Shown in pieces: positions 8,632-57,107 of a stretch of 64,000 nucleotides of DNA (its first letter is position 1; each line of letters starts with the position of its first letter). Made by a program: the position numbers and the translations under genes. The notes beneath the pieces are model-generated. The model was not told the DNA's origin. It saw nothing but the letters and a program-made list of their open reading frames with translations, and ran no database searches. The DNA is taken from positions 2,418,001 through 2,482,000 of the forward strand of contig NZ_CP034073.1 in NCBI RefSeq assembly GCF_003855155.1, written 5' to 3'. Source of the DNA: Shewanella psychromarinicola (GTDB lineage Bacteria > Pseudomonadota > Gammaproteobacteria > Enterobacterales > Shewanellaceae).

Positions 8632-9075
8632 ATGCGCTACGCTGCTAAGATCCTAGGCCGCTACGCGGATAGTGCGCTTCGCTTCTAGGGCGTGACTTCG
8701 TCACTGCTAGGGACAGCTTTCGCTGCTAAGATCCTAGGCCGCTACGCGGATAGTGCGCTTCGCTTCTAGGGCGTGACTTCGTCACTGCTAGGGACAGCTT
8801 TCGCTGCTAAGATCCTAGGCCGCTACGCGGATAGTGCGCTTCGCTTCTAGGACGTGACTGCGTCACTGCTAAGGACAGCTTCGCTGCTAAGATTCTAGGC
8901 CGCTAGGCGGATAGTGCGCTTCTAGGACGGACTGCGTGACTGCTAAGGACAGCTTCGCTGCTAAGATTGAGTCGCTGGGCGACTAGGCTGTTGATTTTAT
9001 AGCCTCTAGCCGCGTAGCGTCCTAGCAGCGCAGCGCTCTAGGCTCTTTCGCTCGATATCGCTCGTTATCGAGATT
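8632..9075. repeat. CTAG mini-hairpin array, block 1
   Basis: Fills the gap between the DUF4426 gene and rdgB, both minus strand. An 81-bp higher-order unit repeats from 8656, 8737 and 8818, then a diverged copy from 8896. Each unit strings together CCGCTACGCGG, GCTTCGC, GTGACTTCGTCAC and CAGCTTTCGCTG, separated by CTAG, CTAA or ATAG. The last module has a TTTC loop here (GAAA on the other strand). The right end is the conserved core: TTTTATAG, CCGCGTAGCG, CAGCGCAGCG. Array first, core last on the plus strand. Confidence 0.95.
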
Positions 9076-9082
9076 TTAGGCC

Positions 9083-9544
9083 TTAATCTACATAGAACTT
9101 CTGTTTGAATTTCACCGAGGTATTTAATTGATTTTTGTACTTAATGGCAATGGTGAAATTGACATCTTGATCGTCGCGGTAAGGCACTTCTGCGATGTAA
9201 TAGATGGATTCGCCTTCACGGATTTCTTTAAAATCAAGCGTCATGCGTGCATCAATTAAGTTATTGGCGATGCCTGAAATTTCGACCGAGACTGCGGGAT
9301 GTCCTTCTTGGCTGGTATTTAGCACGGTAATATTGACTAATCCATTGTAACTGCTGCGTTCTATGCCGTAGGTTTTAGCTATTTCTGGGGTAATAAAGGT
9401 GCTACTAAGCGCCATGTAATGAATATCAAAATTACCCACTTGTTGCTTTTGTTCTGCGTGAGCATTGCCAATATTGCTGATTGCGATGACTGACAACAAC
9501 AATATTTGTAACAGTGAGCGAGATAAACGCAATGATTGAAACAT
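9083..9544 (-). CDS. DUF4426 family exported protein
   Basis: A 153-residue protein with a signal peptide (SLLQILLLSVIAISNIGNAHA, cleavage before EQK). The mature region (VGNFDIHYMALSSTFITPEIAKTYGI and the C-terminal KFKQKFYVD) matches the DUF4426 family, which commonly sits in this yggT/yggU/rdgB block in marine gammaproteobacteria. It is probably a periplasmic beta-sandwich protein; its role is unknown. It follows yggU by about 50 bp on the same strand. Confidence 0.85.
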   Translation of the reverse strand: MFQSLRLSRSLLQILLLSVIAISNIGNAHAEQKQQVGNFDIHYMALSSTFITPEIAKTYGIERSSYNGLVNITVLNTSQEGHPAVSVEISGIANNLIDARMTLDFKEIREGESIYYIAEVPYRDDQDVNFTIAIKYKNQLNTSVKFKQKFYVD

Positions 9545-9593
9545 AATCTGTCCTTAGTGTGCTTGAGCAATAACGTTATTATAGATGAGTCGG

Positions 9594-9893
9594 CTATAAA
9601 AGCGCGGCTATTTCCGCTGGGATAACTTTGGGTTGGCATATTTTAATTTGCTTATGACGACCTTGTTCACCTTTGAGAATATGTACCTGACTTTTAGGGA
9701 CTTTACAGGCTTTTGCGAGGTACTTAGACAAATAAGCATTTGCTTTACCGTCAATGGGTGGCGCTGTTATGGCTATTTTTAATTCGTTACCGTGTAAGCC
9801 GACAATTTGATCGCGGCTTGCTTTGGGTTGTACATAGACAAAAAGCAGCAAGTCTCCTTGCTGCTCATCGTTAATATAGCTTACTGGGTTCAT
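9594..9893 (-). CDS. yggU: YggU family protein (DUF167)
   Basis: A 99-residue DUF167 protein. The family core [20 protein letters not shown] and [27 protein letters not shown] is clear. The family is small, soluble and of unknown function. It is downstream of yggT (about 100 bp), as in most gammaproteobacteria, consistent with one minus-strand operon with proC and yggS. Confidence 0.93.
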
Positions 9894-9992
9894 TTTTTAA
9901 CCTCAGCTCGAGATATTAAATTGTTGAAATGGGCTAATTTTAGTTTATTTACCCCAACTCTTAACCCGAGTTGAGGTTGTTTAATTCGACAA

Positions 9993-10541
9993 CTAAATAA
10001 TTGACCAAAAAGGAATATATTGTGCACACAGCATGTTAATGAAGTTCATTGCAATAAACACCACCAATACCGATAAATCCAAGCCACCCATTGCAGGTAT
10101 TATTCTACGCACTGGCGCTAAAACCGGTTCTGTTAATTGCGCAATAACCATAACAATAGGGTTATTGTTTTGATTGAACCAGCTTAATACTGCACGAATA
10201 AGTAACATCCAAAAAAACAATACGCCCGCTTGTTTTATCACAGAGATAAATGAGAACAATAACAAGGTAAGAATGTCTACAGCAGCACCTGCAATCAAAG
10301 TAAGTACTAACATTTTAACTAACACGACAATCAGTGCCAGTAAGATTGATGAAGTATCGATACGTCCTATCGAAGGTAATAGTCGACGCATTGGTGCGAT
10401 AATAGGCTGTGTCGCTTTAATCACAAATTGACTAAATGGATTGTAAAAATCCGCTCTTGCAAGCTGCAGCATAAAACGAAGAATGACGATCATTAGGTAT
10501 AAGTCAAACACGGTGTTGACTAAAAAACTCATTGCATTCAT
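9993..10541 (-). CDS. yggT: YggT family integral membrane protein
   Basis: Two YGGT repeats with about four to five membrane segments; the conserved ARADFYNPFSQFVIKATQPI and its second-half counterpart NPIVMVIAQLTEPVLAPVRRIIPAMGGLDLS are visible. The start at 10541 (MNAMSFLVNTVFDLYLM) is chosen over the longer frame from 10673: it matches the family N-terminus, has AAGG 8 bp upstream, and gives 182 residues. The extra upstream sequence is a degenerate 12-bp tandem repeat and not family sequence. The family has been linked to osmotic stress tolerance. Confidence 0.9.
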   Translation of the reverse strand: MNAMSFLVNTVFDLYLMIVILRFMLQLARADFYNPFSQFVIKATQPIIAPMRRLLPSIGRIDTSSILLALIVVLVKMLVLTLIAGAAVDILTLLLFSFISVIKQAGVLFFWMLLIRAVLSWFNQNNNPIVMVIAQLTEPVLAPVRRIIPAMGGLDLSVLVVFIAMNFINMLCAQYIPFWSII

Positions 10542-10561
10542 GGATATTGCCTTACGTTTAT

Positions 10562-10620
10562 GTAAATTAGTGCCTAAGTTAGTACCTAAATTAGTGCTTA
10601 AATAAATGCTTAAATTAACT
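10562..10620. repeat. Imperfect 12-bp tandem repeat upstream of yggT
   Basis: Four to five degenerate copies of TAARTTAGTGCC-like units, read on the minus strand as an LSTNLGTNLGTNL-type stretch. They lie between proC and the preferred yggT start, where a promoter or leader would be. Confidence 0.7.
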
Positions 10621-10767
10621 GATCGCATATTTAACAGTTCAGTTAACTCAGCTGCAATATACCCGATTTTCACTCAGATTTCGTGCGTTTAAGCTGAGTT
10701 TTTACTAAAAACTATTTTAGCACTAAAGAGGTTAACGTTAAGTTAAATAATCATTCATCCCATAGCG

Positions 10768-11586: not shown

Positions 11587-11651
11587 TAAGTCTGTATCCA
11601 ATAAAAGAGTGAATTTATGTCCAATTGCTGTGTATGTTACCTAATTCAGCT

Positions 11652-12122
11652 CTAGGACGCTACGCTTCCAGGTTCTAGGGTCGCTACGCTGCTCGGTTCT
11701 AGTGTCGCTACGCTGCTAGGGCGGACTACGTCCTGCTAGGATCTAGGGCGTGACTTCGTCACTGCTAGGGTCGCTGCGCTGCTAGAACGGACTACGTCCT
11801 GCTAGGCCGCTGCGCGGATAGAGCGCTTCGCTTCTAGGGACAGCTTCGCTGCTAAGATTGAGTCGCTGCGCGACTAGGCTATTGATTGTATAGAATCTAG
11901 CCGCGTAGCGTCCTAGCAGCGCAGCGCTCTAGGCTGTTGCTATAGATTGTATAGAATCTAGCCGCGTAGCGTCCTAGCAGCGCAGCGTTCTAGGCTCTTG
12001 CTATAGATTGTATAGAATCTAGCCGCGTAGCGACCTAGCAGCGCAGCGTTCTAGGCTGTTGCTATAGATTGTATAGAATCTAGCCGCGTAGCGTCCTAGC
12101 AGCGCAGCGCTCTAGGCTGTTG
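11652..12122. repeat. CTAG mini-hairpin array, block 2
   Basis: Fills the gap between yggS and proC, both minus strand. The left part has TNC-loop modules on the plus strand (GCTACGC, GTGACTTCGTCAC, GGACTACGTCC, CCGCTGCGCGG, CAGCTTCGCTG). The right part is four copies of a 61-bp core unit, with its CCGCG at 11901, 11962, 12023 and 12084, each carrying CGCGTAGCG and GCGCAGC plus TTGTATAGAATCTAG. Copies differ at only a few positions. The last copy ends only a few bases before the yggS stop. Confidence 0.95.
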
Positions 12123-12125
12123 ATT

Positions 12126-12821: not shown

Positions 12822-12848
12822 AATGTTGGTTTAATGGATGTCTCTACA

Positions 12849-17190: not shown

Positions 17191-18237
17191 TTGTCGATCC
17201 AAATCAATAACGGAGAAGATACTTTGGCTAGATTTTCAGGGCTAGATAAAGACACCGGCCATAAAGCACGTGGCAAAACTGGCGTATTACTATTAAATCT
17301 AGGTACACCAGATGCGCCAACGGCATCTGCTGTTCGCATTTATTTGGCTGAGTTTTTGGCAGACCCTCGAGTGGTGGAAATTCCAAAACTAATATGGATG
17401 ATTATTCTTCACGGCATTATTTTGCGTATTCGTCCGGCTAAATCAGCAGCGTTATATCAAAAAGTATGGACCGATGCGGGTTCGCCTTTACTCGATATCA
17501 GCCAACGTCAACAAGCAAAACTAGCCAAACAATTACAAGCACAAGGCTACGATGCCAGTGTGCATTTGGCGATGCGTTATGGATCGCCATCAACGTCTAG
17601 CACCTTGCAAGCTATGCACAAACAAGGTGTAGACAACTTAGTGGTTTTGCCTTTGTATCCGCAGTATGCTGCGCCAACAACCGGGTCTGCGTTTGACGCT
17701 TTAGCCAAAGAACTGATGAAATGGCGTTATATTCCGGCACTGCATTTTATTAATACCTATCATGACAACACTGATCTTATCGATGCCCTTGCCGCATCCA
17801 TTCAAAAAGACTTTGATGAACACGGTAAGCCACAAAAATTGGTGATGTCATATCATGGTATGCCAGAGCGAAATCTGCATTTAGGCGATCCCTATTACTG
17901 CTTCTGTTTGAAAACGACTCGTTTAGTGGTCGAAAAATTAGGCTTAAGTGAAGACGATTACGTCGCAACATTCCAGTCTCGCTTTGGCAAGGCTAAATGG
18001 TTACAACCTTATACCGACGCAACAATAGCCAGCCTACCAGCCAAAGGTATCACTGATATCGCCGTCATCTGCCCAGCATTTAGTGCCGATTGCCTAGAAA
18101 CCTTAGAAGAAATCAAAGGCGAAAATCGTCACGTATTTGAAGATGCCGGCGGCAAAAACTTCAGATACATTGAATGTTTAAATGATAACGATGACCACAT
18201 CAACATGATGGCCAATCTGGTAAAACCTTTCTTGTAA
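17191..18237 (+). CDS. hemH: Ferrochelatase
   Basis: Inserts ferrous iron into protoporphyrin IX, the last heme-synthesis step. Family signatures: GVLLLNLGTPDAPTASAVRIYLAEFLADPRV at the N-terminus, the metal-site His in VMSYHGMPERNL (near residue 224), GDPYYC, FQSRFGKAKWL, and the Glu-rich DCLETLEEIKGENR (near residue 305). Two TTG starts are possible: 17191 (348 residues) or 17224, which has a better GGAG at 8-base spacing; I keep the longer. It stands alone, followed by a hairpin array. Confidence 0.93.
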   Translation: MSIQINNGEDTLARFSGLDKDTGHKARGKTGVLLLNLGTPDAPTASAVRIYLAEFLADPRVVEIPKLIWMIILHGIILRIRPAKSAALYQKVWTDAGSPLLDISQRQQAKLAKQLQAQGYDASVHLAMRYGSPSTSSTLQAMHKQGVDNLVVLPLYPQYAAPTTGSAFDALAKELMKWRYIPALHFINTYHDNTDLIDALAASIQKDFDEHGKPQKLVMSYHGMPERNLHLGDPYYCFCLKTTRLVVEKLGLSEDDYVATFQSRFGKAKWLQPYTDATIASLPAKGITDIAVICPAFSADCLETLEEIKGENRHVFEDAGGKNFRYIECLNDNDDHINMMANLVKPFL

Positions 18238-18241
18238 TTAT

Positions 18242-18530
18242 AGGGCGCTGCGCTGCTAGAACGGACTTCGTCCTGCTAGAACGGACTTCGTCCTGCTAGA
18301 ACGGACTTCGTCCTGCTAGAACGGACTTCGTCCTGCTAGAACGGACTTCGTCCTGCTAGAACGGACTTCGTCCTGCTAGAACGGACTTCGTCCTGCTAGA
18401 ACGGACTTCGTCCTGCTAAAGTCGCTTCGCTATGCTGTTTGCTTTTATAGCCTCTAGCCGCGAAGCGTCCTAGCAGCGCAGCGCTCTAGGCTCTTTTGCT
18501 CGCTACCGCCTTTCACTGCTCGCCTCTGCT
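18242..18530. repeat. CTAG mini-hairpin array, block 3
   Basis: Starts almost at the hemH stop. It holds eight perfect copies of a 20-bp unit, GAACGGACTTCGTCCTGCTA, from 18259 to 18418. Each unit has the GGAC-TTC-GTCC hairpin and a CTAG junction. A degenerate core (TTTTATAG, CCGCGAAGCG, CAGCGCAGCG) follows up to about 18500 and ends in short CGCTACCGC pieces. Confidence 0.95.
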
Positions 18531-19503: not shown

Positions 19504-19800
19504 AATAGCTCGCTACGCTTCTAAGATTTTAGGCTGCTTCGCTACAAGGGCGGACTACGTCCTGCTAGGATCTAGGGCGTGACTTCGTCACTGCTAGTGT
19601 CGCTACGCTTCTAGGGCGGACTACGTCCTGCTAGGATCTAGGGCGTGACTTCGTCACTGCTAGGCCGCTGCGCTGCTAGAACGGACTACGTCCTGCTAGG
19701 ATCGCTACGCTTCTAGGGACAGCTTCGCTGCTAAGATTGAGTCGCTACGCGACTCGGCTGTTGATTTTATAGGCTCTAGCAGCGAAGCGTTCTAGGCTGT
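19504..19800. repeat. CTAG mini-hairpin array, block 4
   Basis: Sits between yqgE and ruvX, normally adjacent genes of one operon. Modules on the plus strand: GCTACGC, GGACTACGTCC (three times), GTGACTTCGTCAC (twice), CGCTGCGC, CAGCTTCGCTG, then the core with TTTTATAG and AGCAGCGAAGCG. Array first, core last, in the direction of transcription. Confidence 0.95.
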
Positions 19801-20253: not shown

Positions 20254-20640
20254 CTAGATCCTAGGCCGCTAGGCGGATAGTGCGCTGCGCTTCTAGAGCG
20301 GACTTCGTCCTGCTAGGGACAGCTTCGCTGCTAAAATCCTAGGCCGCTACGCGGATAGTGCGCTGCGCTTATAGAGCGGACTTCGTCCTGCTAGGGACAG
20401 CTTCGCTGCTAGGATCCTAGGCCGCTACGCGGATAGTGCGCTGCGCTTCTAGAGCGGACTTCGTCCTGCTAGGGACAGCTTCGCTGCTAAGATTGAGCCG
20501 CTACGCGGCTAGGCTGTTGATTTTATAGAATCTAGCCGCGTAGCGTCCTAGCAGCGCAGCGTTCTAGGCTTTTTTCGCTCGCTACCGCTCTAGGCTTTTG
20601 GCTCGCTACCGCTCTAGGCTTTTTTGCTCGCTACCGCTTA
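20254..20640. repeat. CTAG mini-hairpin array, block 5
   Basis: Begins immediately at the ruvX stop. Three copies of a unit of about 80 bp contain CCGCTACGCGG, GCTGCGC, GGACTTCGTCC and CAGCTTCGCTG. A core follows (CCGCTACGCGG, TTTTATAG, CGCGTAGCG, GCGCAGC). It ends with short CTCGCTACCGCT repeats near 20575-20640. Confidence 0.95.
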
Positions 20641-20867: not shown

Positions 20868-21250
20868 TTACTAGGGCGGACTTCGTCCTGCTAGGTCGCT
20901 ACGCGGATAGAGCGCTGCGCTTCTAGGGACAGCTTCGCTGCTAAGATTAAGTCGCTGCGCGACTAGGCTGTTGATTTTATAGCCTCTAGCCGCGAAGCGT
21001 CCTAGCAGCGTAGCGTTCTCGGCTGTAGCTAAGATTGAGTGACTAGATTCTAGGCCGCTTCGCTACTATGCTTTAGTTTTTATAGAGTCTAGCCGCGAAG
21101 CGTCCTAGCAGCGCTCTAGGCATCGAGATCCTAGGCCGCTACGCGACTAGGCTGTTGATTGTATAGAATCTAGCCGCGAAGCGTCCTAGCAGCGCAGCGC
21201 TCTAGGCTGTTGATTTTATAGCGTCCTAGGCTTTAGCGAAGCGTTCATTG
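20868..21250. repeat. CTAG mini-hairpin array, block 5b
   Basis: Lies between the candidate promoters and the phosphatase gene, so it would form part of a long 5' leader. It contains GGACTTCGTCC, GCTACGC, GCTGCGC, CAGCTTCGCTG and CGCTGCGCG, then three successive core copies (TTTTATAG or TTGTATAG with CCGCGAAGCG and GCGTAGC or GCGCAGC). It ends about 15 bp before the start codon's ribosome site. Confidence 0.93.
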
Positions 21251-23364: not shown

Positions 23365-23515
23365 AATCGTTGGGATAATAATAGCCGGGATAATCGTTGG
23401 GGGTAATCGTCGAGTTAACCGTTGGGTTAACCGTTGGGTTAACCGTTGGGATAATAGCCGGGATAATAATCATCGAGTTAATAGCCGGGTTAATCGTTGG
23501 GTTAATAGCAGTGTA
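23365..23515. repeat. Degenerate 12-bp tandem repeat, separate family
   Basis: Variants of GGGTTAACCGTT, GGATAATAGCCG and GGTTAATCGTTG follow one another between the synthase and phosphorylase genes. Three perfect 12-bp copies run at about 23414-23450. There are no CTAG junctions and no TNC/GNA loops, so this is unrelated to the hairpin arrays. It looks like a slippage-prone minisatellite. Confidence 0.85.
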
Positions 23516-23668
23516 AATAGCTGCATCTAGATCTGGCCTATTGTAAGTCAATGCAATCAAACCTAACGAAGATGGCGGGGAGGATTGCTGAATAAGCAGC
23601 TGTTTAATGACGCTTTATCACCATAAGTCGAGGCTGGAACCTCGAACCTCGAACAACAAGGACACCTT

Positions 23669-25405
23669 ATGTCAGTAATGGAAGTATTACAGCAAAAGCT
23701 GCAGCAACAACTTAGCTGCATTTACAATGATATCGACCTCGACATGAGCACCTCAGAGTTGGCGGTTCAACTCATCGACATCATGCGCATAACTGAGTAT
23801 TGCCAAGTACCAGCACCTTTTGTTAATCATTGGTCTGAAAAAGACATCATTATGATCACTTATGCTGACAGTGTGCTCCAACAAGGTGAGCGTCCACTCA
23901 CAACCCTGGCGCAATTTATCGACAGCTATTTAAGTTGCATCAATGCGGTGCATATATTACCGTTTTTTCCCTACAGCTCAGACGATGGTTTTTCCGTTAT
24001 CGACTACTCAAGCATTAACGAAGGTCTAGGCTCGTGGGCAGACATTAGTGCCATTGCCAGCAAGCGACGATTAATGTCAGATCTAGTCATCAATCATTGT
24101 TCCAGCCGCAGTTTATGGTTTGAACATTTTTGTAAAGGTGAGGGCGTGGGTCATGACTATTTCTTTACCGCCGATCCGGAGGATGATTTAAGCGCGGTGG
24201 TTCGGCCCAGAACCTCAGCCCTACTCAGGCCAACTGAGACACCTAACGGCACTCAACATGTATGGTGTACGTTTAGCCACGACCAAGTCGATTTTGATTT
24301 TCGTAATCCACAAGTGTTAATTGAGTTTGTACGAATAATTCGGCAATATTTAGATGCTGGGATCAGTATTTTTCGCCTAGATGCGGTGGCTTTTTTATGG
24401 AAAATAGTGGGCAGTAAATCAATTAACTTACCGCAAACCCATGAAATAGTCCGTTTGTTGCGTACATTAATCGAGCATGCCCAACAAGACGCCATTATTA
24501 TTACCGAAACCAATATCCCTAACACCCAAAACTTGACCTATTTTGGTAATGCTAACGAAGCACACAGCATTTATAACTTTTCACTGCCACCATTGTTAAT
24601 CAACAGCCTTATTACCGGTAGTTGCTTGTACTTAAAGCGTTGGCTTATGAGCATGCCGCCCGCACAAGATGGCACAACCTACTTTAATTTTATTGCCTCC
24701 CACGATGGCATCGGCCTTCGTCCAGCAGAGGGGTTACTCGACGACGATGAGATAGATACACTCGTCGACACCATGCAACAATTCGGTGGCCAAATATCAT
24801 CACGAACCACAGAAGATGGTCAGCAAAAACCATACGAAATGAACATAGCCCTGTTTGATGCGCTGCAAGGTACCACTAAAGGCAAAGACGCTTGGGGCAT
24901 GCAACGTTTTGTGTGTGCCCATACCATTATGTTAGCGCTAGAAGGTATTCCAGGTATTTATATTCATAGTTTATTGGGAACCCGCAACGACTATGAAAAG
25001 CTGGCAAACACGTCACATAATCGTGCTATTAACCGTCATCGTTGGGATCTCAATCAATTAACTGAGCAGCTAAGTGATACCAATAGCGACCATAGCCAAG
25101 TGTTAACCGCGCTGACTCATTTAATTAATATTCGCACCCAGCAAAGTGCTTTTCATCCCAATGCCACCCAGTTCACCCTGCACTTAGGCTTACAATTATT
25201 TGGTTTCTGGCGTCAAAGTCGTAACCGTAAACAGAGCATCTTCTGCGTCAGTAACGTATCTGATCAAGTCACCACGCTACCCATTAATGAACTTAATCTT
25301 ACTATTGCCGACTACTGGATAGATCTATTAACCGGCCAACAGATTGAAGACATCACCCAACCCATGCAACTGCAACCCTATCAAACAGTGTGGATCAGTA
25401 ACTAG
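23669..25405 (+). CDS. GH13_18 sucrose-phosphorylase-like enzyme, probable glucosylglycerate phosphorylase
   Basis: A 578-residue alpha-amylase-fold phosphorylase. The catalytic nucleophile is in [11 protein letters not shown] (near residue 236), the acid/base Glu in IITETNIPN, and the third acid in [10 protein letters not shown]. It is longer than sucrose phosphorylases and resembles YcjM-type glucosylglycerate phosphorylases, which release glucose-1-phosphate and glycerate. Its place just after the synthase pair supports that substrate. The stop TAG lies within the CTAG that opens array block 6. Confidence 0.8.
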
Positions 25406-26240
25406 TGTCGCTGCGCTACTAGGGCTGACTTCGTCCTGCTAGGATCGCTGCGCTGCTAGGGCGTGACTTCGTCACTGCTAGGATCGCTACGCTGCTAGGG
25501 CGTGACTTCGTCACTGCTAGGATCGCTACGCTGCTAGGGCGTGACTTCGTCACTGCTAGGATCGCTACGCTGCTAGGGCGTGACTTCGTCACTGCTAGGA
25601 TCGCTACGCTGCTAGGGCGTGACTTCGTCACTGCTAGGATCGCTACGCTGCTAGGGCGTGACTTCGTCACTGCTAGGATCGCTACGCTGCTAGGGCGTGA
25701 CTTCGTCACTGCTAGGATCGCTACGCTGCTAGGGCGTGACTTCGTCACTGCTAGGATCGCTACGCTGCTAGGGCGTGACTTCGTCACTGCTAGGATCGCT
25801 ACGCTGCTAGGGCGTGACTTCGTCACTGCTAGGATCGCTACGCTGCTAGGGCGTGACTTCGTCACTGCTAGGATCGCTACGCTGCTAGGGCGTGACTTCG
25901 TCACTGCTAGGATCGCTACGCTGTTAGGGCGGACTACGTCCTGCTAGGACAGCTTCGCTGCTAGGGCGTGACTTCGTCACTGCTAGGGACAGCTTCGCTG
26001 TTAAGATTTTATAGCATCTAGCCGCGAAGCGTCCTAGCAGCGAAGCGCTCTAGGCTGTTGCTATTGATTTTATAGCATCTAGCAGCGAAGCGCTCTAGGC
26101 TGTTGCTATTGATTTTATAGCATCTAGCAGCGAAGCGTCCTCGAAGACCGCAGGTCGTCCTAGCAGCCGCAGGCGCCCTATTCCTAGCATCTAGCCGCGA
26201 AGCGTCCTAGCAGCGCAGCGCTCTAGGCTCTTGGCTATTA
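25402..26240. repeat. CTAG mini-hairpin array, block 6 (39 bp x 12)
   Basis: Twelve copies of a 39-bp unit; the GTGACTTCGTCAC hairpin starts at 25463 and every 39 bp up to 25892, alternating with GCTACGC (GCTGCGC in the first). Other modules follow (GGACTACGTCC, CAGCTTCGCTG), then several cores with TTTTATAG and AGCAGCGAAGCG. Near 26146 a different pair appears, GACCGCAGGTC and GCCGCAGGC, whose GCA loops are on the plus strand. Confidence 0.97.
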
Positions 26241-26876: not shown

Positions 26877-27592
26877 CTAGGTCCTAGATTTTAGGTCCTA
26901 GGCCGCTACGCGGATAGTGTGCTTCGCTTCTAAGATCCTAGGCAGCTTCGCTGCTAAGATCCTAGGCCGCTACGCGGATAGTACGCTTCGCTTCTAGGAC
27001 GGACTTCGTCCTGCTAGGGACAGCTTCGCTGCTAAGATCCTAGGCCGCTACGCGGATAGTGCGCTTCGCTTCTAGGGCGTGACTTCGTCACTGCTAGGGA
27101 CAGCTTCGCTGCTAAGATCCTAGGCCGCTATGCGGATAGGCTCTGTGCTTTCAGCTTTTATAGCATCTAGCAGCGAAGCGTCCTCGAAGACCGCAGGTCG
27201 TCCTAGCAGCCGCAGGCGCTCTATTCCTAGCATCCTAGCAGCTCGGCGCTCTAGGCTTTTGCTAAGATTGTATAGCATCTAGCAGCGAAGCGTCCTCGAA
27301 GACCGCAGGTCGTCCTAGCAGCCGCAGGCGCCCTATTCCTAGCATCCTAGCAGCGCAGCGCTCTAGGCTTTTGCTAAGATTGTATAGCATCTAGCAGCGA
27401 AGCGTCCTCGAAGACCGCAGGTCGTCCTAGCAGCCGCAGGCGCTCTATTCCTAGCATCCTAGCAGCGCAGCGCTCTAGGCTTTTGCTAAGATTGTATAGC
27501 ATCTAGCAGCGAAGCGTCCTCGAAGACCGCAGGTCGTCCTAGCAGCCGCAGGCGCCCTATTCCTAGCATCTAGCCGCGCAGCCCTTTCTAGA
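26877..27592. repeat. CTAG mini-hairpin array, block 7 (112 bp x 4)
   Basis: The left half has three copies of the CCGCTACGCGG, GCTTCGC, CAGCTTCGCTG type, with GGACTTCGTCC or GTGACTTCGTCAC in some. The right half has four copies of a 112-bp unit with CATCTAGCAGCG at 27164, 27276, 27388 and 27500. Each unit carries AGCGAAGCG, GACCGCAGGTC, GCCGCAGGC and usually GCGCAGC, with loops read GNA on the plus strand. Confidence 0.96.
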
Positions 27593-27885: not shown

Positions 27886-28398
27886 ATGAAATCTTGGTAT
27901 TTACTGTATTGCAAAACGCGTCATGAAATACGTGCACAGCAAAATTTGGCGTTGCAACAAGTCGATAGTTATTTACCTATGATCACCCAGCAAAGAACGG
28001 TACGTAACAAGCAAAAAATGGTTACGGCGCCTCTTTTCCCTAGCTACCTGTTTATCTATTTCGATCCTCAAATCACTAGCGTGAGCAAAATCCACAATAC
28101 CCGTGGCGCTAACCGCATTGTTGGTTGTCGAGAAGTGATGACGCCCATTGACGAAAGAATTATTTCAGCACTTAAACGACGAGTTCAAGATTATGTACCA
28201 GAAGAGGTAAAACCATTAGGCAAAGGCGATAAAGTCAAATTTGTCGACGGACCGTTTAAAGACCTTGAAGCCATATTCGATGAGAACAACCCAGATAAAC
28301 GTTGCCATGTGTTATTTAACATTATGGGACAACAGAAACGAATTTTAGTCGAACTTACCAATTTACAAGCTACATCAAAAAATGACCCAGCAACTTAA
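27886..28398 (+). CDS. rfaH: Transcription antiterminator RfaH
   Basis: A 170-residue NusG paralogue. The N-terminal NGN domain (MKSWYLLYCKTRHEIRAQQNL, APLFPSYLFIYFD) binds RNA polymerase at ops sites. The C-terminal KOW part (GDKVKFVDGPFKDLEAIF) recruits the ribosome after refolding. RfaH lets polymerase read long polysaccharide operons. Here it stands 290 bp upstream of an exact ops sequence and the operon that sequence heads, so its target is next door. Confidence 0.95.
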   Translation: MKSWYLLYCKTRHEIRAQQNLALQQVDSYLPMITQQRTVRNKQKMVTAPLFPSYLFIYFDPQITSVSKIHNTRGANRIVGCREVMTPIDERIISALKRRVQDYVPEEVKPLGKGDKVKFVDGPFKDLEAIFDENNPDKRCHVLFNIMGQQKRILVELTNLQATSKNDPAT

Positions 28399-28597: not shown

Positions 28598-28687
28598 CTT
28601 GCGCTCAATTATTGACTGCTATGGTGTTTAGCCAATAAAAATGAATATTTCGCATAGCGAAGGGCACTTTGGAAGCCGTAATCTATG

Positions 28688-28699
28688 GGCGGTAGCGTG
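28688..28699 (+). promoter_or_regulatory. ops element (RfaH recruitment site)
   Basis: GGCGGTAGCGTG, identical to the core ops/JUMPStart sequence that pauses RNA polymerase and loads RfaH. It lies between rfaH and the large exporter gene, upstream of array block 8, so the operon including its arrays would be read by RfaH-modified polymerase. Confidence 0.9.
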
Positions 28700-28707: not shown

Positions 28708-28919
28708 TCGATGACAGCCTAGAGCGCTTCGCTGCTAGGACGCTACGCGGCTAGAGGCTATAAAATCTTAGCAGCGAAGCTGTTCTTAGCAGGACGTAGT
28801 CCGCTCTCTGGCGAGCCTGCGAGTTCCTAGATACTAGCAGGACGAAGTCCGTCCTAGAACTTAGCAGGACGAAGTCCGCTCTAGAAGCGAAGCGCACTAT
28901 CCGCGTAGCGGCCTAGAAC
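28708..28919. repeat. CTAG mini-hairpin array, block 8, inverted
   Basis: The first block in the opposite orientation: the core comes first (AGCGCTTCGCT, CGCTACGCGG, AGGCTATAAAATC) and GNA-loop modules follow on the plus strand (CAGCGAAGCTG, GGACGTAGTCC, GGACGAAGTCC twice, GCGAAGC, CCGCGTAGCGG). It occupies the leader between ops and the exporter start. Confidence 0.95.
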
Positions 28920-28951: not shown

Positions 28952-31684
28952 GTGTTACATAAAACCAAAAACGCATTGATAGCAGGCATGACAGCCTTTA
29001 TTATTTTAACCACCCAAGCGCAAGCCGTCACCCCAACGCCGCAAATGATTGAGCAGTTTAAACAATTGCCCAAAGCAGAGCAGGAGCGAGTGGCAAAACA
29101 GTATGGTATAGACCCTTCAATACTCTCAGGCAGTGCTAACAATTCAGCTGCTGTGACAAATCCTAATGTTGTTGAACCACGTCAAAATCAAACAAATGGA
29201 CAATCAGCAACAACTAAAACAAGCGAGTTTGATTTTAATGAAGACAGCGATAAAGACGCTTTAAAACGTTTCGGTTATGAAATGTTCGAAGGTGAACCAA
29301 CCACTTTTGCACCCGTAACCGATGTACCTGTTCCAAGTGAATATATGGTCGGTCCTGGCGATGTCATTAAGGTTCAGTTATACGGTAAAGAAAGTAACGA
29401 ATACAGTTTAACCATTAATCGTGATGGCACAGTGCAAATTCCCGATTTAGGCCCAGTATCGGTTGCCGGATTAAGTTTTGCCGATTTACGTCAAGAACTG
29501 TCAAAACGCATACAGCAGCAAATGATCGGCATCGAATCGAATATCACTATGGGTGAATTACGCTCAATTCGCATTTTTATCGCCGGCGATGCCTACAAGC
29601 CAGGTTCGTACACAGTATCGAGTTTATCAACCATTACCCAAGCGCTATTTGTCGCCGGTGGTGTTAATGAAATCGGTAGCCTGCGTAATGTGCAAGTTAA
29701 GCGCAACGGTAAGTTAGTAGGCGCATTTGATTTATACGATTTACTGCTCCGTGGTGATGCCTCTGGCGACATTAACCTTCGTTCAGGTGACGTAGTATTC
29801 ATTCCATCAATTGGTGGCTTAGTCAGCGTGGCGGGTGAAGTACAACGTCCGGCAATTTACGAGCTGAAAAAGCACGAAACCATTAGTGATGTTATCAACA
29901 TGGCAGCGGGCATCAAGCAAGGTGCGTATCCTAAAAATAGCAGTATTGAGCGTTATAATGCCAATGGCTTAAAAACCATTATCAATGTCGATTTAACGTC
30001 TGCACAAGGCAACAACACCTTAGCTAAAGCGGGTGATTATATTCGGGTTAAAAATGCCTCTAATCAATATGAAGATGCTATCACCATTGTGGGTGCCGTC
30101 GTTCGTCCGGGTAAATACCAGTGGAAGCAACAGCGAATAAGCGATCTACTGCCGTCTATTTGGGGCGATTTATTATTATCTGCCGATTTAGATTACGGTT
30201 TGATTGTGCGTGAAATAAACAAACATGGCGACATCGAAACGCTGCAATTTGCCCCTGGCGAAGCCATTACGTCACCCAATTCTGTGCAAAACCTGCGCTT
30301 ACAGCCTCGCGACAAGGTGATGATATTTAATGTTAATGATGATACTCAAAATCGCTTTGAATTAAATGCACTGGTTAAAAAACGGGTTAATAAAGTGGAA
30401 TCCCTTAGAGGTGACTCATTACTGGATGCAGACCTTTTTAAAGCAGGATTTGAAACCTTAGACAGTACGGTAACAAGCAAATATACCAATCAAATAGCGG
30501 GCGTGGTATTAAATGTAGACACATCTGCAGAGCAAACGCTGGTTGGCAGTGAAGTGTCTCAGATGCTGTCAAATTTATTTGAGGACAGAGACTTAATTAA
30601 ACTCAGTCATGTTATGTCACGCAAAGAATTATTGTACCCCATAGTGACCAAACTTACCCAGCAGGGTGATGCACAACAAGGCATGCAAATTGTCGCCATC
30701 AGCGGTAAAATTCGACACCCAGGGGTATACCCGTTAACAAACTCTGCAAAAGTTACCGACTTAATTAAAGCGGCTGGTGGTCTGTTAGAAGGTGCTTATA
30801 CTGAGCGAGCAGAACTGACACGTACCCAAGCCACGGCAGCAATATCCGATATCATTCACAAGCAAATTAACCTTCATGCTGCCATTAATGGTAATCAACA
30901 AGAAAATATAGAACTTGAAGGTCGCGATATGGTGACTATTCTTACCACGCCAGAATGGCAAGAAAGAAAAGTTATCGAAGTCAAAGGTGAAGTTAAGTTC
31001 CCGGGTACCTATAACATCAGGCGCGGTGAGCGATTATCGGATGTTATCGCTAGAGCCGGTGGTTTTACCGAATACGCTTATCCTTATGCCGCGGTATTTG
31101 TCCGTGAATCCGTACGGATGCAAGAACAGCTTGAAATTAAAAAGTTAGCCAATCAACTACGCCGAGATCTGGCCACTCGTGGCATTTCAAACGATGGTTC
31201 AAGCATTAATTATTCCGAAGCACAGTTGATGTTAACTGACTTAGAAAACATCCAAGCAGTCGGTCGATTAGTTATAGACTTAAATGCACTTAAATTAGGT
31301 ATTAAAGAAGCGGATGTTCAACTTGAAGACAGCGACGTATTGTACGTGCCAACCATTAAGCAAACCGTCGCCGTTATGGGCGAAGTTCAACACCCTACAA
31401 CGCATCGATTTAAAGACGGCTTAACCTTAGACGATTACTTATTGATGTCTGGTGGCTCAAGAGAACGTGGCGATGAAGATAGAGTCTACGTCATCAAGGC
31501 CAATGGTTCGGTGATGATGCCGACTCACAATAGTTGGTTTAGCAATGAATCACAAATCTCCGCCGGTGATACTGTGATTATTCCGCTAGACACTGAGTAC
31601 AAAGATAAATTAACCCTTTGGTCGCAAGTCACCCAGATTATTTATAACTCTGCTGTAGCCTTTGCTGCTATCTCAGGGATCTAG
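28952..31684 (+). CDS. Large SLBB-domain polysaccharide export protein (OPX/Wza-like)
   Basis: A 910-residue outer-membrane polysaccharide export protein. A signal peptide (ALIAGMTAFIILTTQAQA) precedes a poly-export domain (SEYMVGPGDVIKVQLYGKESNEYSLTINRDG, about residues 130-200) and several SLBB repeats (for example GAVVRPGKYQW, SGKIRHPGVYPL, KGEVKFPGTYNI, MGEVQHPTTHRF). It is more than twice the size of classical Wza because of the extra SLBB units. The GTG start at 28952 has GGAG at 28941. Its TAG stop is part of the CTAG opening array block 9. Confidence 0.88.
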   Translation: MLHKTKNALIAGMTAFIILTTQAQAVTPTPQMIEQFKQLPKAEQERVAKQYGIDPSILSGSANNSAAVTNPNVVEPRQNQTNGQSATTKTSEFDFNEDSDKDALKRFGYEMFEGEPTTFAPVTDVPVPSEYMVGPGDVIKVQLYGKESNEYSLTINRDGTVQIPDLGPVSVAGLSFADLRQELSKRIQQQMIGIESNITMGELRSIRIFIAGDAYKPGSYTVSSLSTITQALFVAGGVNEIGSLRNVQVKRNGKLVGAFDLYDLLLRGDASGDINLRSGDVVFIPSIGGLVSVAGEVQRPAIYELKKHETISDVINMAAGIKQGAYPKNSSIERYNANGLKTIINVDLTSAQGNNTLAKAGDYIRVKNASNQYEDAITIVGAVVRPGKYQWKQQRISDLLPSIWGDLLLSADLDYGLIVREINKHGDIETLQFAPGEAITSPNSVQNLRLQPRDKVMIFNVNDDTQNRFELNALVKKRVNKVESLRGDSLLDADLFKAGFETLDSTVTSKYTNQIAGVVLNVDTSAEQTLVGSEVSQMLSNLFEDRDLIKLSHVMSRKELLYPIVTKLTQQGDAQQGMQIVAISGKIRHPGVYPLTNSAKVTDLIKAAGGLLEGAYTERAELTRTQATAAISDIIHKQINLHAAINGNQQENIELEGRDMVTILTTPEWQERKVIEVKGEVKFPGTYNIRRGERLSDVIARAGGFTEYAYPYAAVFVRESVRMQEQLEIKKLANQLRRDLATRGISNDGSSINYSEAQLMLTDLENIQAVGRLVIDLNALKLGIKEADVQLEDSDVLYVPTIKQTVAVMGEVQHPTTHRFKDGLTLDDYLLMSGGSRERGDEDRVYVIKANGSVMMPTHNSWFSNESQISAGDTVIIPLDTEYKDKLTLWSQVTQIIYNSAVAFAAISGI

Positions 31685-31985
31685 CCCGAAGGGCTAGATA
31701 GGACGGACTACGTCCTGCTAGGATCGCTTCGCTGCTAGGCCGCTACGCGGATAGTGCGCTTTGCTTCTAGGACAGCTACGCTGCTAAGGCGTGACTTCGT
31801 CACTGCTAGAGTCGCTTCGCTGCTAGGACGTGACTTCGTCACTGCTAGGATCGCTTCGCTTCTAGGGACAGCTTCGCTGCTAAGATTTTATAGCAGGCCG
31901 TAGGCCGCTCTAGCCGTGAAGCGTCCTAGCAGCGCAGCGCTCTAGGCTGTTTATTTTATAGCGTCCTAGACTCTAGAACCTAGAT
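31681..31985. repeat. CTAG mini-hairpin array, block 9
   Basis: Opens with CTAGCCCGAAGGGCTAG (31681-31697), a 7-bp stem with a GAA loop that contains the exporter stop codon. Then GGACTACGTCC, CCGCTACGCGG, GTGACTTCGTCAC (twice), CAGCTTCGCTG, the unique GGCCGTAGGCC (31896-31906) and a core with TTTTATAG. Confidence 0.95.
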
Positions 31986-32008
31986 TTTCAACTTCAGAAG
32001 GAACTGAT

Positions 32009-32386
32009 ATGCGTTTCGAACAACTGGATGTGTGGAAAAGAGCTTCTAGATTGTCTTGTCAAATTTATCAGTTGACGGAATCAGTCAGTAACTGGGGTTT
32101 TAAAGATCAAATTACACGTTCAGGATTATCTGTTCCCTCAAACATCGCGGAGGGAGAGGAACGTGAAACCCTAAAAGAAAAGATAAGGTTTTTGTATTAC
32201 GCAAAAGGGTCTCTAGGTGAGCTTGTAACTCAGTTATATATCGGAGCGGAAATCGAATACCTTGATAAACAAATGGCTATGTCGATGGTAAAAGAAGCTA
32301 AAGAGTTAGCCAAAATTTTAGGTGCTCTTATAAAACAAAAACAAGCACAGATTAAAGAAGATAACGCCGATTACCAAACAAAGTGA
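32009..32386 (+). CDS. Four-helix-bundle protein (23S rRNA intervening-sequence-protein family)
   Basis: A 125-residue protein (FEQLDVWKRASRLSCQIYQLT, RSGLSVPSNIAEGEER, FLYYAKGSLGELVTQLYIG). This family was first seen encoded in 23S rRNA intervening sequences and is often found stray in polysaccharide loci; its role is unknown. It forms small helical bundles. The ATG at 32009 has AAGGA upstream. It is wholly enclosed by two hairpin arrays, splitting the exporter from Wzz. Confidence 0.9.
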   Translation: MRFEQLDVWKRASRLSCQIYQLTESVSNWGFKDQITRSGLSVPSNIAEGEERETLKEKIRFLYYAKGSLGELVTQLYIGAEIEYLDKQMAMSMVKEAKELAKILGALIKQKQAQIKEDNADYQTK

Positions 32387-32397
32387 CTAATACGCAA

Positions 32398-32815
32398 GCT
32401 TGTGCTTTCCGCTTGTATAGCAGCGAAGCGATCTAGCCGCGTAGCGTCCTAGAATCTAGGCTTTTGCTTTGCTTGTATAGCAGCGTAGCGCTCTAGCCGC
32501 GAAGCGTCCTAGAATCTAGGCTTTTGCTTTGCTTGTATAGCAGCGAAGCGATCTAGCCGCGTAGCGCCCTAGAATCTAGGCTTTTGCTTTTATGACATCT
32601 AGAAGCGAAGCGAGCTAACCAGTAAAAACTCAAAACTTAGCAGATATCTGCTGACATCTTTTGACCTTATAGCAGCGTAGCGCTCTAGCCGCGAAGCGTC
32701 CTAGAATCTAGGCTTTTGCTTTGCTTGTATAGCAGCGTAGCGCCCTAGCCGCGAAGCGTCCTAGAATCTAGGCTTTTGCTTTTATGGCACCTAGAAGCGA
32801 AGCGCACTGCTTCCC
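32398..32815. repeat. CTAG mini-hairpin array, block 10 (60-bp units)
   Basis: Only GNA-strand core-type modules. Three 60-bp units (32411, 32471, 32531) and two more near 32670 and 32727 each carry a GCGNAGCG pair and end TAGAATCTAGGCTTTTG. In successive units the first loop reads GAA, GTA, GAA and the second GTA, GAA, GTA. About 60 bp near 32610-32665 is unrelated sequence. Confidence 0.95.
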
Positions 32816-33824: not shown

Positions 33825-34077
33825 TTTTATAGTTTCTAGCAGCGAAGCGCTCTAGCAATCTAGGCTCAACTCTTTTTGCCGCCTATTGGGACGGTTTTCA
33901 AGAAAACCGTAAAACCTAGGCTTTATGCAGGTTAGCGAAGATTGACCTGTCTCAAAATGGATTAAAAGCGTCTCAGCTTGGTTCGAAAGGCTGAGATCTA
34001 AAATTGTAAATATTCAATTCACTTCGCCTAATAAAATCAATATTTAGGCTATTTAAAGTACATTCGGAAACATAAAA
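33825..34077. other. Spacer before rmlB1 with array remnant and two hairpins
   Basis: A short remnant (AGCAGCGAAGCGCTCTAG, about 33838-33856) is followed by ACGGTTTTC-AA-GAAAACCGT (a 9-bp stem, about 33891-33910) and CTCAGC with GCTGAG around 33972-33995. No T run follows either, so terminator function is doubtful. No gene is seen. Confidence 0.5.
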
Positions 34078-51509: not shown

Positions 51510-51724
51510 AGCCTAGAGGCTAGAGCGCTGCGCTGCTAGGACGCTTCGCGGCTAGAGGCTATAAAAGAAAACAGCATAGCGAAGCGACTCTAGCAGGACG
51601 AAGTCCGACTCTAGCAGCCGCAGGCACTCTATTCCTAGACCCTAGCAGGACGCAGTCCGCTCTCTGGCGAGCCTGCGAGTTCCTAGAATCTAGAACCTAG
51701 CAGTGACGAAGTCACGCCCTAGGT
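51510..51724. repeat. CTAG mini-hairpin array, block 13, inverted
   Basis: Core first (CTAGAGCGCTGCG, CGCTTCGCGG, AGGCTATAAAAG), then GNA-loop modules on the plus strand: GCGAAGC, GGACGAAGTCC, GCCGCAGGC, GGACGCAGTCC and GTGACGAAGTCAC. It ends 28 bp before glmM. It shares GGCGAGCCTGCGAG with block 8 and, with one base change, with block 15. Confidence 0.94.
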
Positions 51725-54601: not shown

Positions 54602-54631
54602 TCTCATTACTGCAATTATTGATCTGTTGTC

Positions 54632-54673
54632 CTAGATTTATGATCCAAAACCTAGGGCCTTTTCATCTAGGAA
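54632..54673. repeat. Residual CTAG sequence between rmlB2 and rmlA2
   Basis: Three CTAG sites (in TCCTAGATTT, ACCTAGGGCC, ATCTAGGAAC) without intact hairpins, in the same place as the remnant at 35185. Confidence 0.55.
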
Positions 54674-54684
54674 CTTATTTACAC

Positions 54685-55563
54685 ATGAAAGGCATTATTT
54701 TAGCGGGCGGCTCAGGGACTCGTTTATACCCACTCACGAGAGGGGTATCCAAACAGTTATTGTCCGTGTATGACAAGCCAATGATCTACTATCCATTGTC
54801 AACATTAATGCTGGCTGGGATAAGAGACATATTGGTTATTACCACTCCAGAAGACAGCGAAAATTTTAAACGTTTACTCGGTGATGGTTCTGATTTCGGC
54901 ATTCAGTTGAGTTATGCATTACAAGTATCACCAGACGGTTTAGCGCAGGCATTTTTAATTGGCGAAGAATTCATTGGACAAGACAGTGTTTGCTTGGTGT
55001 TAGGTGATAACATCTTTTATGGGCAATCCTTCAGTAAAATATTGCAGAATGCCGCTAGCAAGGACGGTGGCGCCACAATATTTGCCTATCAAGTTAAAGA
55101 CCCTGAAAGATTTGGTGTGGTCGAGCTTGATGTCAATATGAACGCTATATCGATAGAGGAAAAGCCCGCTAAACCTAAATCAAATTATGTTGTGACGGGT
55201 TTATATTTCTACGACAACAGCGTTGTTGAAATGGCAAAACAAGTTAAGCCATCACATCGCGGCGAGTTAGAAATAACCACGTTAAATGAAATGTATTTAA
55301 CCAAGGGTAACTTGAAGGTAGAGTTGCTTGGTCGTGGTTTTGCATGGTTAGACACAGGCACATATGATAGCTTGCACGAAGCGTCTTCTTTTGTGCGTAC
55401 TATAGAGAATGTGCAAGGGCTTAAAGTGGCCTGTTTAGAAGAAATAGCCTGGCGCAACGGTTGGTTAAGTACGGATGTTCTTGCTAAATTGTCTGCACCG
55501 ATGATAAGCAGCAACGATGGTCAATATTTAGCGAATTTAGCTGGTTCGGTTTACGAGGCTTAA
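54685..55563 (+). CDS. rmlA: Glucose-1-phosphate thymidylyltransferase, copy 2
   Basis: A 292-residue RmlA. The start at 54685 ([20 protein letters not shown]) is chosen because it matches copy 1 and family starts; the frame upstream is only open by chance through the rmlB2 end. [15 protein letters not shown] and [20 protein letters not shown] confirm identity. It is more diverged from copy 1 than rmlB2 is. Confidence 0.95.
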
Positions 55564-55565
55564 GT

Positions 55566-56444
55566 ATGAACATATTGGTCACAGGTAAAAATGGCCAAAT
55601 TGCTAGGTGTTTAGTTAAGCAACTTAGTACTCTACCAGATGTCACCTTGTTTGCATTAGATCGTGATCAGCTTGATATAACAGACCCTATTAAGGTCAAT
55701 AAGGTTATTGCTGAGTTTTCACCCAATATCATTATCAATGCAGCTGCTTATACCGCAGTTGATAACGCGGAACAAGAAAGCGCATTGGCCTATGCAGTTA
55801 ATCGTGATGGCCCTAAATACCTAGCTGTTGCAGCGCATCAAATCAATGCCATTATTGTCCATATTTCGACCGATTATGTTTTTGCTGGTGACAGTCTTGC
55901 CGCTTATGTTGAGACTGATAACACCGAACCTCAAAGTGAGTCTGGCCGAAGTAAACTCGCTGGTGAACAAGCGGTTGCACGAGCGTGTTCGCGGCATATT
56001 ATACTCAGAACCAGTTAGACATTTGCTGAGCATGGGCATAATTTTGTCAACACTATGCTGCGTCTTGCTAAAACCAAAGCGTCTATAGGGGTTGTTGCCG
56101 ATCAGTTTGGCGGCCCAACCTATGCGGGTGATATTGCCAATGCCATAGTGACAATTGTGAAACAGCTCGTTGATGGTCATCAAGCCTACGGGATATACCA
56201 TTATTCCGGTTTTCCTCATGTCAGCTGGCATGCTTTTGCGACAAAAATTTTTGACCTTGCGGTAGCGCAAGGCGTATTGAAACAGCCCATTCAAGTTACC
56301 CCTATCACAACGCTAGACTATCCCCTCCCCGCAAAGCGCCCAGCAAACTCACGTTTAAATTGTGATAAAATCAATCAAGAATTTGGTCTTGTGCAAAGTG
56401 ATTGGCAAGCCGCATTAGTCAACATTGGAGAGTATTCACGATGA
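55566..56444 (+). pseudogene. rmlD: dTDP-4-dehydrorhamnose reductase, degenerate
   Basis: One continuous frame of 292 codons interrupted by TAG at 56016-56018, where relatives have Trp (ILRTS-stop-TFAEHGHNF in place of TSWVFAEHGHNF). Two other changes point to decay: the catalytic Tyr of YGRSK is Ser (ESGRSKLAGE), and the cofactor loop reads GKNGQIARCL, with Ala where Gly is expected. RmlD would make dTDP-L-rhamnose. No other rmlD is in the window. The 3' end overlaps the rmlC2 start. Confidence 0.9.
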
Positions 56445-56989
56445 ACGTCATCACTACACAAATTCCAGATGTGAAGATTATAGAGCCCACCGTGTTTGGC
56501 GATGATCGTGGCTTTTTTATGCAGACGTGGAGCCAGCAACAGTTTGAAGCACTCGTGACAGGCAAGCCTACCATTTTTGTACAGGATAACCATTCCAAGT
56601 CGAACAAGGGAACATTACGCGGTTTACATTATCAAACACAACACACTCAAGGAAAGCTGGTACGTGTCGTGGGCGGTGAAGTGTTTGATGTGAGCGTCGA
56701 TATTCGTAAAGGCTCACCTACCTTTGGTCAATGGGTCGGTGTTTACTTATCTGCCGCCAATAAACGCCAGTTGTGGATCCCTGAAGGCTTTGCCCATGGT
56801 TTTTATGTAACAAGCGATCAGGCTGAGTTTATTTACAAATGTACTGATTATTATTGCCCTGGATCTGAAGAGAGTATTGCCTGGAATGACCCCGCTATTG
56901 GCATTCAATGGCCGTTAACTAACCCACCTTTATTATCAAATAGAGATGCTCACCAAAGTGTATTGCTCAAGCACGCACAATGTTTATAA
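56441..56989 (+). CDS. rmlC: dTDP-4-dehydrorhamnose 3,5-epimerase, copy 2
   Basis: A 182-residue RmlC. The ATG at 56441 has GGAG upstream and overlaps the rmlD stop (ATGA). FGDDRGFFMQTWS, LRGLHYQTQHTQGKLVRV and WIPEGFAHGFYVTSD are complete. It is clearly different from copy 1 (for example HYQTQHTQGK versus HFQKMKPQGK), so this copy is not a recent duplicate. Confidence 0.94.
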   Translation: MNVITTQIPDVKIIEPTVFGDDRGFFMQTWSQQQFEALVTGKPTIFVQDNHSKSNKGTLRGLHYQTQHTQGKLVRVVGGEVFDVSVDIRKGSPTFGQWVGVYLSAANKRQLWIPEGFAHGFYVTSDQAEFIYKCTDYYCPGSEESIAWNDPAIGIQWPLTNPPLLSNRDAHQSVLLKHAQCL

Positions 56990-56992
56990 CAT

Positions 56993-57107
56993 TGTGCTGC
57001 GCTTCTAGGGCGCTTCGCTGCTAGGACCTAGGGCCTATAACCTAGAACCTAGCAGGACGTAGTCCGCTCTCCGCTCTCTGACGAGCCTGCGAGTCCGTCT
57101 TCGGCAC
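56993..57107. repeat. CTAG mini-hairpin array, block 15, inverted remnant
   Basis: GCTGCGC, GCTTCGC, several CTAG sites, GGACGTAGTCC and ACGAGCCTGCGAG. It precedes the glmM fragment just as block 13 precedes the intact glmM, so it was duplicated or exchanged together with it. Confidence 0.85.

Follow-up and report, generated by a model that had tools for sequence, protein, structure and literature searches.

What are the CTAG-punctuated hairpin arrays that lie between the genes of Shewanella psychromarinicola, and what spreads them? The question arose from a 64-kb stretch of its chromosome (64,000 nucleotides; positions 2,418,001 to 2,482,000 of NZ_CP034073.1, here called the window), in which an initial annotation had described a family of intergenic blocks made of short modules. 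On balance, and with limited confidence, we favour the reading that these CTAG blocks represent, in Shewanella, the repeat arms of a small and widespread insertion element. This S23 element consists of a gene of the S23 family (PF05635, '23S rRNA-intervening sequence protein') between two arrays with a 7-bp period, which outside Shewanella are usually inverted relative to each other. Two statements are best supported: the S23 gene and its two 7-bp-periodic arms form a unit that can be acquired or lost as a whole, and the CTAG blocks belong to the same class of sequence as the arms flanking the S23 gene of S. psychromarinicola.

CTAG clusters were defined as at least four CTAGs with gaps of up to 70 bp. 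The window contains 15 of them between about 8.6 and 57.1 kb (Table 1), with a total length of 4,662 bp and 226 of the 349 CTAGs. A first-order Markov simulation (100 runs) yielded on average 0.88 clusters per 64 kb with at most 7 CTAGs per cluster, compared to 41 in the largest observed cluster. CTAG had also been described as a rare word that serves here as punctuation. The punctuation is evident from a density of 48.5/kb within clusters versus 2.07/kb elsewhere; the rarity was overstated, as the deficit of CTAG outside the arrays is slight (2.07/kb versus 3.57/kb from base composition; 123 observed versus 131 by second-order expectation). All named modules were found in the window, among them GTGACTTCGTCAC (21 copies), CAGCTTCGCTG (14), GGACTTCGTCC (13), CCGCTACGCGG (10), GCCGCAGGC (6) and GACCGCAGGTC (5). 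The blocks are intergenic and, as proposed, share an architecture and no single consensus hairpin.

In one orientation a module consists of CTAG, about 3 nt, a palindrome with a 3-nt loop and then TG, and 7-bp CTAGNNN units are interspersed between the modules. The most frequent CTAG spacings in the window are 16 bp (42 cases), 7 bp (23), 22 and 17 bp (22 each) and 20 bp (18). Most window modules are longer than the second commonest spacing of 7 bp; relatives show heptamer arrays at the same site. With regard to the annotated loop rule, a stem of at least 4 bp with a 3-nt loop was present in 59 of 143 CTAG-to-CTAG intervals of 12-26 bp, compared to a mean of 3.6 and a maximum of 10 after shuffling. 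Modules were classified as forward (CTNCG) or reverse (CGNAG), and in many blocks an AT-rich junction (TTTTATAG or TTGTATAG) separates the former from the latter. Of the 35 genomic blocks analyzed, 24 contain both kinds. In 22 of these 24, the forward module comes first in at least 90% of module pairs; the opposite order was found in none, and two blocks are of mixed order (0.88 and 0.75). This rule was first seen in the window, which holds 10 of the 24 blocks, and the stretches used for the order test were picked by module matches; outside the window, 13 of 14 two-kind blocks keep the order fully. Since the order is invariant under reverse-complementing, each block forms an inverted repeat whose inner and outer sides are fixed.

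The only PF05635 match in the 5,134,849-bp genome is a gene of the window that is flanked by CTAG arrays on both sides. Mutual inverted copies are present in the two flanking arrays (31726-31769 and 32418-32461, 77% over 44 nt; 31722-31737 and 32418-32433, 100% over 16 nt). RNA of the stretch 31690-32630 folds better than all 20 dinucleotide shuffles (z -7.3), and in the predicted structure the arrays pair around the S23 frame. The gene upstream is an SLBB/Poly_export gene. Solved structures exist within the S23 family (2gsc, XCC0516; 2rld). The module core CTAGCCGCGNAGCGTCCTAGCAGCG has 32 copies in the genome and its reversed-pattern control none; 13 of the 32 lie less than 50 kb from the S23 gene, and a second group is located at 2.62-2.70 Mb.

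The search of relatives that had been suggested was carried out on 129 Shewanella genomes. PF05635 was detected in 68 and the module pattern GACTNCGTCN{1,2}TGCTA in 44, both together in 35 and neither in 52 (Fisher p 1.4e-5). Within 300 bp of the S23 gene, at least four CTAGs were present in 23 of 34 fetched Shewanella loci and CTAGNNNCTAG in 20, compared to 2 of 34 at the locus ends in each case. Close reading of six of these loci showed CTAGNNN heptamers adjoining S23, partly intermixed with hairpin modules, and three of the six have extended CTAGGTT or CTAGAAC runs next to the gene. Array content can change fast, as is seen in the spacer between yqgE and ruvX: in 29 of 30 fetched genomes (one had no yqgE match) its length ranges from 29 to 679 bp, from bare spacers or few CTAGNNN heptamers to many modules. 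Even in a genome whose RuvX is 100% identical to that of the window, the spacer differs (421 bp, one CTAG). The fixed module order, the 7-bp CTAGNNN units, this fast change at one site and the presence of an S23 gene among the blocks go beyond what the initial annotation contained. In one yqgE-ruvX spacer (locus L307, genome G096), CGGATGA heptamers stand alongside CTAG modules.

The 7-bp period beside S23 is not confined to Shewanella. Four sets of S23 loci were analyzed: 34 from Shewanella, 24 from other families of the order, 29 from the phylum and 80 named loci. The last are the best 80 of at least 588 confirmed stretches retrieved with one conserved peptide as query; 74 of them have enough flank, and these span Bacteroidota, Planctomycetes, Chloroflexi, Clostridia, Acidobacteria, proteobacteria, archaea and others. 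Of the phylum loci, three were too short for periodicity and two for arm orientation, and one order locus had no heptamer pair. Self-identity at lag 7 was higher in S23 flanks than far from the gene in all four sets: 0.363 versus 0.255 in Shewanella (z 6.6), 0.341 versus 0.250 in the order set (z 4.7), 0.314 versus 0.254 in 26 phylum loci (z 7.4) and 0.311 versus 0.264 in the 74 named loci (z 6.8). Lags 7, 14, 21 and 28 were raised by 0.02 to 0.11 above distant windows, and other lags stayed within about +0.02, the off-period excesses including lag 20 in Shewanella and lag 22 in the order set (z 2.55, versus 2.1 and 2.3 at lags 21 and 28). Because the far windows are mostly coding, a comparison limited to intergenic sequence matters; in the 74 loci it gave 0.439 beside S23 and 0.318 elsewhere at lag 7, versus 0.332 and 0.306 at lag 8, and lag 7 was higher beside S23 in 30 of 38 loci with enough of both kinds. 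Degenerate 7-bp arrays lie no more than 250 bp from S23 in 51 of the 74 loci, compared to 7 of 133 control windows.

Inverted arms prevail outside Shewanella. Among the 74 loci, an inverted score of at least 14 was reached in 31 and a direct one in 9 (controls, 1/74 and 0/74), and the inverted match was the better one in 47 loci and the direct in 21. The order set (n=23) comprises 12 loci with inverted arms only, 4 direct only, 4 with both and 3 with neither; the corresponding numbers in the phylum set (n=27) are 18, 1, 4 and 4. Three loci (L150, L153, L157), for example, carry GGCAGTA repeats 5' of S23 and TACTGCC repeats 3' of it. The upstream arm is G-rich and rich in sense-strand stop codons (8.7 per 100 nt, versus 5.6 in shuffled sequence), and in 54 of 71 loci S23 and its two neighbours are all co-directional. 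The heptamers in these flanks are mostly other than CTAG heptamers.

Plasmids provided occupied and empty sites. S23 genes were found in 31 plasmid records, mostly cyanobacterial among the names listed. In all ten loci that were fetched, heptamer-like repeats were seen by eye near both ends, inverted in nine and direct in one (L318); the right arms of L323 and L325 are short. Flank searches from eight of these loci retrieved related plasmids without S23, and the arms are missing together with S23 at six of seven usable sites. The clearest case is plasmid C of Trichormus variabilis, which compared to plasmids of Nostoc linckia and Nostoc carneum contains an insert of 423 bp consisting of arm, S23 frame and inverted arm, in flanks that are about 98% identical. 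The inverted right arm overlaps the end of the S23 frame. The insert is bounded by two copies of GTAAT, which is single at the empty site, a 5-bp target duplication located outside the arms; the same is seen in Tolypothrix. A Scytonema plasmid carries the same insertion with a left arm that is 14 nt, or two repeat units, shorter. At five further sites (L319, L320, L325, L316 and L322) the S23-less relative also lacks the arms, with less clean borders; the L319/L347 pair differs by about 35 extra bp past the right arm. A Nostoc sp. C052 plasmid (L342) retains an arm and a shortened S23-like stretch. The L321/L343 pair was rejected as a clean empty site, as other DNA occupies it. At L321 and L322, S23 lies within CRISPR-Cas clusters (cas6-cas4 and cas10-cmr3) of cyanobacterial plasmids.

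These results suggest a mechanism in which the S23 element would spread as a unit and its arms would lengthen or shorten by whole repeat units. Blocks without S23 may have arisen from S23 loss or from copying of the arms alone, and in S. psychromarinicola palindromes inserted into CTAGNNN heptamers would have produced the mini-hairpin modules. As in the intervening sequences (IVS) of 23S rRNA, a long RNA stem would hold S23 in its loop, so that the element would be tolerated within operons. In IVS of, for example, Coxiella and Leptospira, an S23p ORF lies in the loop of a stem that is cut by RNase III (PMC4990558). The window element shares with them a PF05635 ORF and the inverted repeats that bracket it (16-44 nt, 77-100% complementary) in a transcribed region, and both have a sporadic distribution; S23p has no known function (PMC4990558). 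It differs in lying outside any 16S or 23S rRNA gene, between protein genes, with arms that are 7-bp periodic and with similar arrays also present without S23. An Rfam search of the window returned only JUMPstart (28662-28699) at gathering score, and no RNA family matched the arrays.

Dispersed heptamers accompany S23 at the level of whole genomes. Among 295 genomes of the order, (CTAGNNN)3CTAG was found in 54 and S23 in 47; they co-occur in 32, with S23 only in 15, the repeat only in 22 and neither in 226 (Fisher p 2e-17). Stratification by eight families (156 of the 295 genomes; the remaining families had no genome with both) gave a Mantel-Haenszel odds ratio of 14. The spacer of the CTAGNNN heptamer varies by genome, and the reversed (GATC) pattern was present in five genomes of the order. 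Among 299 genomes of the phylum, (GGCAGTA)3 was found in 11, ten of which have S23, compared to 52 of 299 overall (p 1.1e-7), and in every one of these ten, one or more of the listed sites lie apart from the S23 matches. The S23 counts include matches below the curated cut-off in three genomes of the order and four of the phylum. The p-values overstate independence because relatives share ancestry, an effect that family stratification lowers and does not remove. Ten 20-kb samples each from two S23 genomes (G468 and G604) contained no exact 7-bp array of at least 2.5 copies.

Several observations weigh against the S23-element reading. Outside Shewanella, only 3 of 17 S23 loci of CTAG-heptamer genomes have CTAG heptamers within 300 bp, five of the ten S23 genomes with GGCAGTA arrays showed this unit adjacent to S23 (G449, G453, G468, G561 and G650), and S23 was not matched in 22 of the 54 genomes of the order that carry CTAG heptamers. 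Because the dispersed heptamer outside Shewanella is mostly unlike the one flanking S23, we lowered our confidence both in this reading and in the broader one below. No array was detected in 23 of the 74 named loci. The 34 Shewanella loci show no clear orientation (arms inverted only in 7, direct only in 4, both in 11 and neither in 12), genome G051 holds 37 module matches without S23, and the array group at 2.62-2.70 Mb lacks any S23 match. On the plasmids, one S23-less site (L354, paired with L317) keeps part of an array, and the Trichormus case is the only clean target duplication. Finally, S23 is, to our knowledge, not among the known transposases. PF05635 is reported to be homologous to Avd of diversity-generating retroelements, a protein that assists the reverse transcriptase and is needed for retrohoming (PMC10053308), and this reported homology is the likeness between the two systems. 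A broader possibility, which we hold more tentatively and would not call probable, is that S23 elements are an unrecognised and very widespread mobile class without a conventional transposase. The long-known heptanucleotide repeats of prokaryotes and the CTAG arrays of Shewanella would be its footprints, and S23 itself would spread and maintain the arms, perhaps through an RNA step with a reverse transcriptase borrowed from elsewhere, as for its relative Avd.

The alternative that survives best, although we regard it as rather unlikely, is that heptamer arrays came first, as microsatellites made by replication slippage, and that S23 elements merely prefer to land there. Bacteria over-represent heptanucleotide repeats and slippage has been proposed (PMC4692102, PMC4679880); direct CTAGGTT arrays flank S23 on both sides at locus L045, and both the partial array at the S23-less L317/L354 site and the frequent mismatch between dispersed and S23-adjacent units fit this order of events. 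An insertion that splits a direct array predicts direct flanks, however, whereas inverted flanks dominate outside Shewanella. The absence of the arms where S23 is absent, at six of the seven usable plasmid sites, and the target duplication outside the arms also weigh against this alternative. The published repeats, GGGAATC and GGGGA(T/C)T in Xanthomonas and Nostoc (PMC4692102) and the stop-codon-rich TAACTGA in Beggiatoaceae, Cyanobacteria and Bacteroidetes (PMC4679880), may be likened to the window heptamers as tandem 7-bp units that are mostly intergenic and lineage-specific, although most window modules are longer than 7 bp; they differ in that the window heptamers carry inserted palindromes. 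Neither 'S23' nor 'four helix' occurs in the main texts of these two papers. The flanks of two Rhodanobacter S23 loci (L203 and L235) contain GGGATTC/GGGAATC-type heptamers. A search of freely available published literature found, among the papers listed, none linking S23 or 'four helix bundle protein' to heptamer repeats. IVS elements and heptanucleotide repeats are known separately, and neither their link nor the hairpin-bearing CTAG version was found in the literature searched.

A role of the blocks in the host as RNA structures under S23 control, such as terminators or mRNA stabilisers in long operons, is improbable. Two of the three stretches compared with dinucleotide shuffles fold strongly (the S23 stretch above, and block 18240-18515 with z -4.6), several blocks start directly after a gene, a JUMPstart and a NusG-family gene are nearby, and stop codons are abundant in the arm repeats. 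On the other hand, block 8632-9075 folds no better than its shuffles (z +0.55), and the yqgE-ruvX spacer varies widely in length and differs even at identical RuvX.

Palindromes of the REP/BIME type (repetitive extragenic palindromes and their mosaic elements), moved by a RAYT-type transposase, were judged very unlikely. Short intergenic palindromes with a terminal tetranucleotide do resemble GTAG-tagged REPs, which are defined by a conserved palindrome with a GTAG or CGTC tag (PMC3733652), and both systems combine dispersed palindromes with one gene bracketed by them. The blocks have no single conserved hairpin and carry CTAG in place of these tags. The RAYT search that had been proposed returned 11 Y1 transposase (PF01797) matches in the genome, and modules were present beside none of the eight loci fetched (three were not fetched). 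In these tests the view that the modules are not a described REP family held, and S23, the partner gene, does not belong to the known transposases. Least probable, on sequence and position, are binding sites for a chromosome-organising protein such as MatP: the palindrome arms of GTGACTTCGTCAC match matS (consensus GTGACRNYGTCAC) and many copies lie near mid-chromosome, but only two (362354 and 1157155) of the 50 listed among 56 GTGACNNNGTCAC sites fit RNY, array copies also occur at 0.05 and 1.38 Mb, and other modules lack matS arms.

Table 1. Positions of the S23 gene and the CTAG blocks in the 64-kb window.
Feature	Position	Strand	Remarks
CTAG block	8632..9060	+	forward modules, TTTTATAG junction at 8995, reverse modules
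CTAG block with four junctions	11652..12115	+	
CTAG block with eight 20-bp CTAGAACGGACTTCGTCCTG units	18240..18515	+	directly 3' of ORF 17191-18237
CTAG block, yqgE-ruvX spacer	19565..19795	+	
CTAG block directly 3' of ruvX	20254..20617	+	
CTAG block, four junctions, mixed module order (0.88)	20871..21229	+	
Largest CTAG block, 41 CTAGs	25402..26226	+	starts at the stop codon of ORF 23669-25405
CTAG block with GACCGCAGGTC/GCCGCAGGC modules	26877..27591	+	
CTAG block directly after JUMPstart RNA match	28719..28916	-	
CTAG array upstream of S23	31681..31986	.	forward modules, junctions at 31886 and 31954, reverse module, then CTAGACT/CTAGAAC/CTAGATT
S23 / four-helix-bundle gene, 125 aa	32009..32386	+	PF05635, Pfam E 3.3e-31; NCBIfam TIGR02436 'four helix bundle protein'
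CTAG arrays downstream of S23, two clusters	32413..32808	.	reverse modules only
Small CTAG block	33836..33919	+	
CTAG block, opposite orientation	51513..51722	-	heptamers CTAGAGG, CTAGACC, CTAGAAT, CTAGAAC
Small CTAG block with heptamers	57005..57052	-	

Some further features were recorded in the window and the genome. The JUMPstart RNA and the NusG-family gene (27886-28398) adjoin arrays upstream of the polysaccharide export gene. Degenerate non-CTAG repeats of the GTTAACCGTTGG type, together with 2.5 copies of the 7-bp AACCTCG, lie at 23400-23650 ahead of the gene at 23669; a degenerate 12-bp repeat, TAAATTAGTGCC, is located at 10563-10610 and three 13-bp CTAGTGATTAAAT units at 6762-6800. 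Elsewhere in the genome, an array of 41 CTAGs with a 37-bp repeat containing CTAGTATCGCTTCGC lies 1.8-2.6 kb from the contig start (L326:1817-2574), possibly close to dnaA, and an array at 2061132-2061464 (L333) consists mostly of 17-bp CTAGTATCGCTTCGC units and contains only forward modules. The dense block group at 2.62-2.70 Mb (L334-L336), where no S23 match was found, may be the trace of an S23 element that was lost. Single copies of GTGACTTAGTCAC, or of its complement, are listed at seven sites (870926, 879162, 1118418, 1203575, 1314708, 1368502 and 2056814); this is perhaps a regulator site.

Two old puzzles may share one answer: heptanucleotide repeats, for which slippage has been the only conjecture, and S23 proteins, which are common and have no assigned function. 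The presence of the gene-plus-arms unit in four sets of loci makes both puzzles testable. If S23 drives the spread of the arrays that flank it, it would represent a mobility system unlike known transposases; if S23 only rides, the unit would still account for the position of many heptamer repeats.

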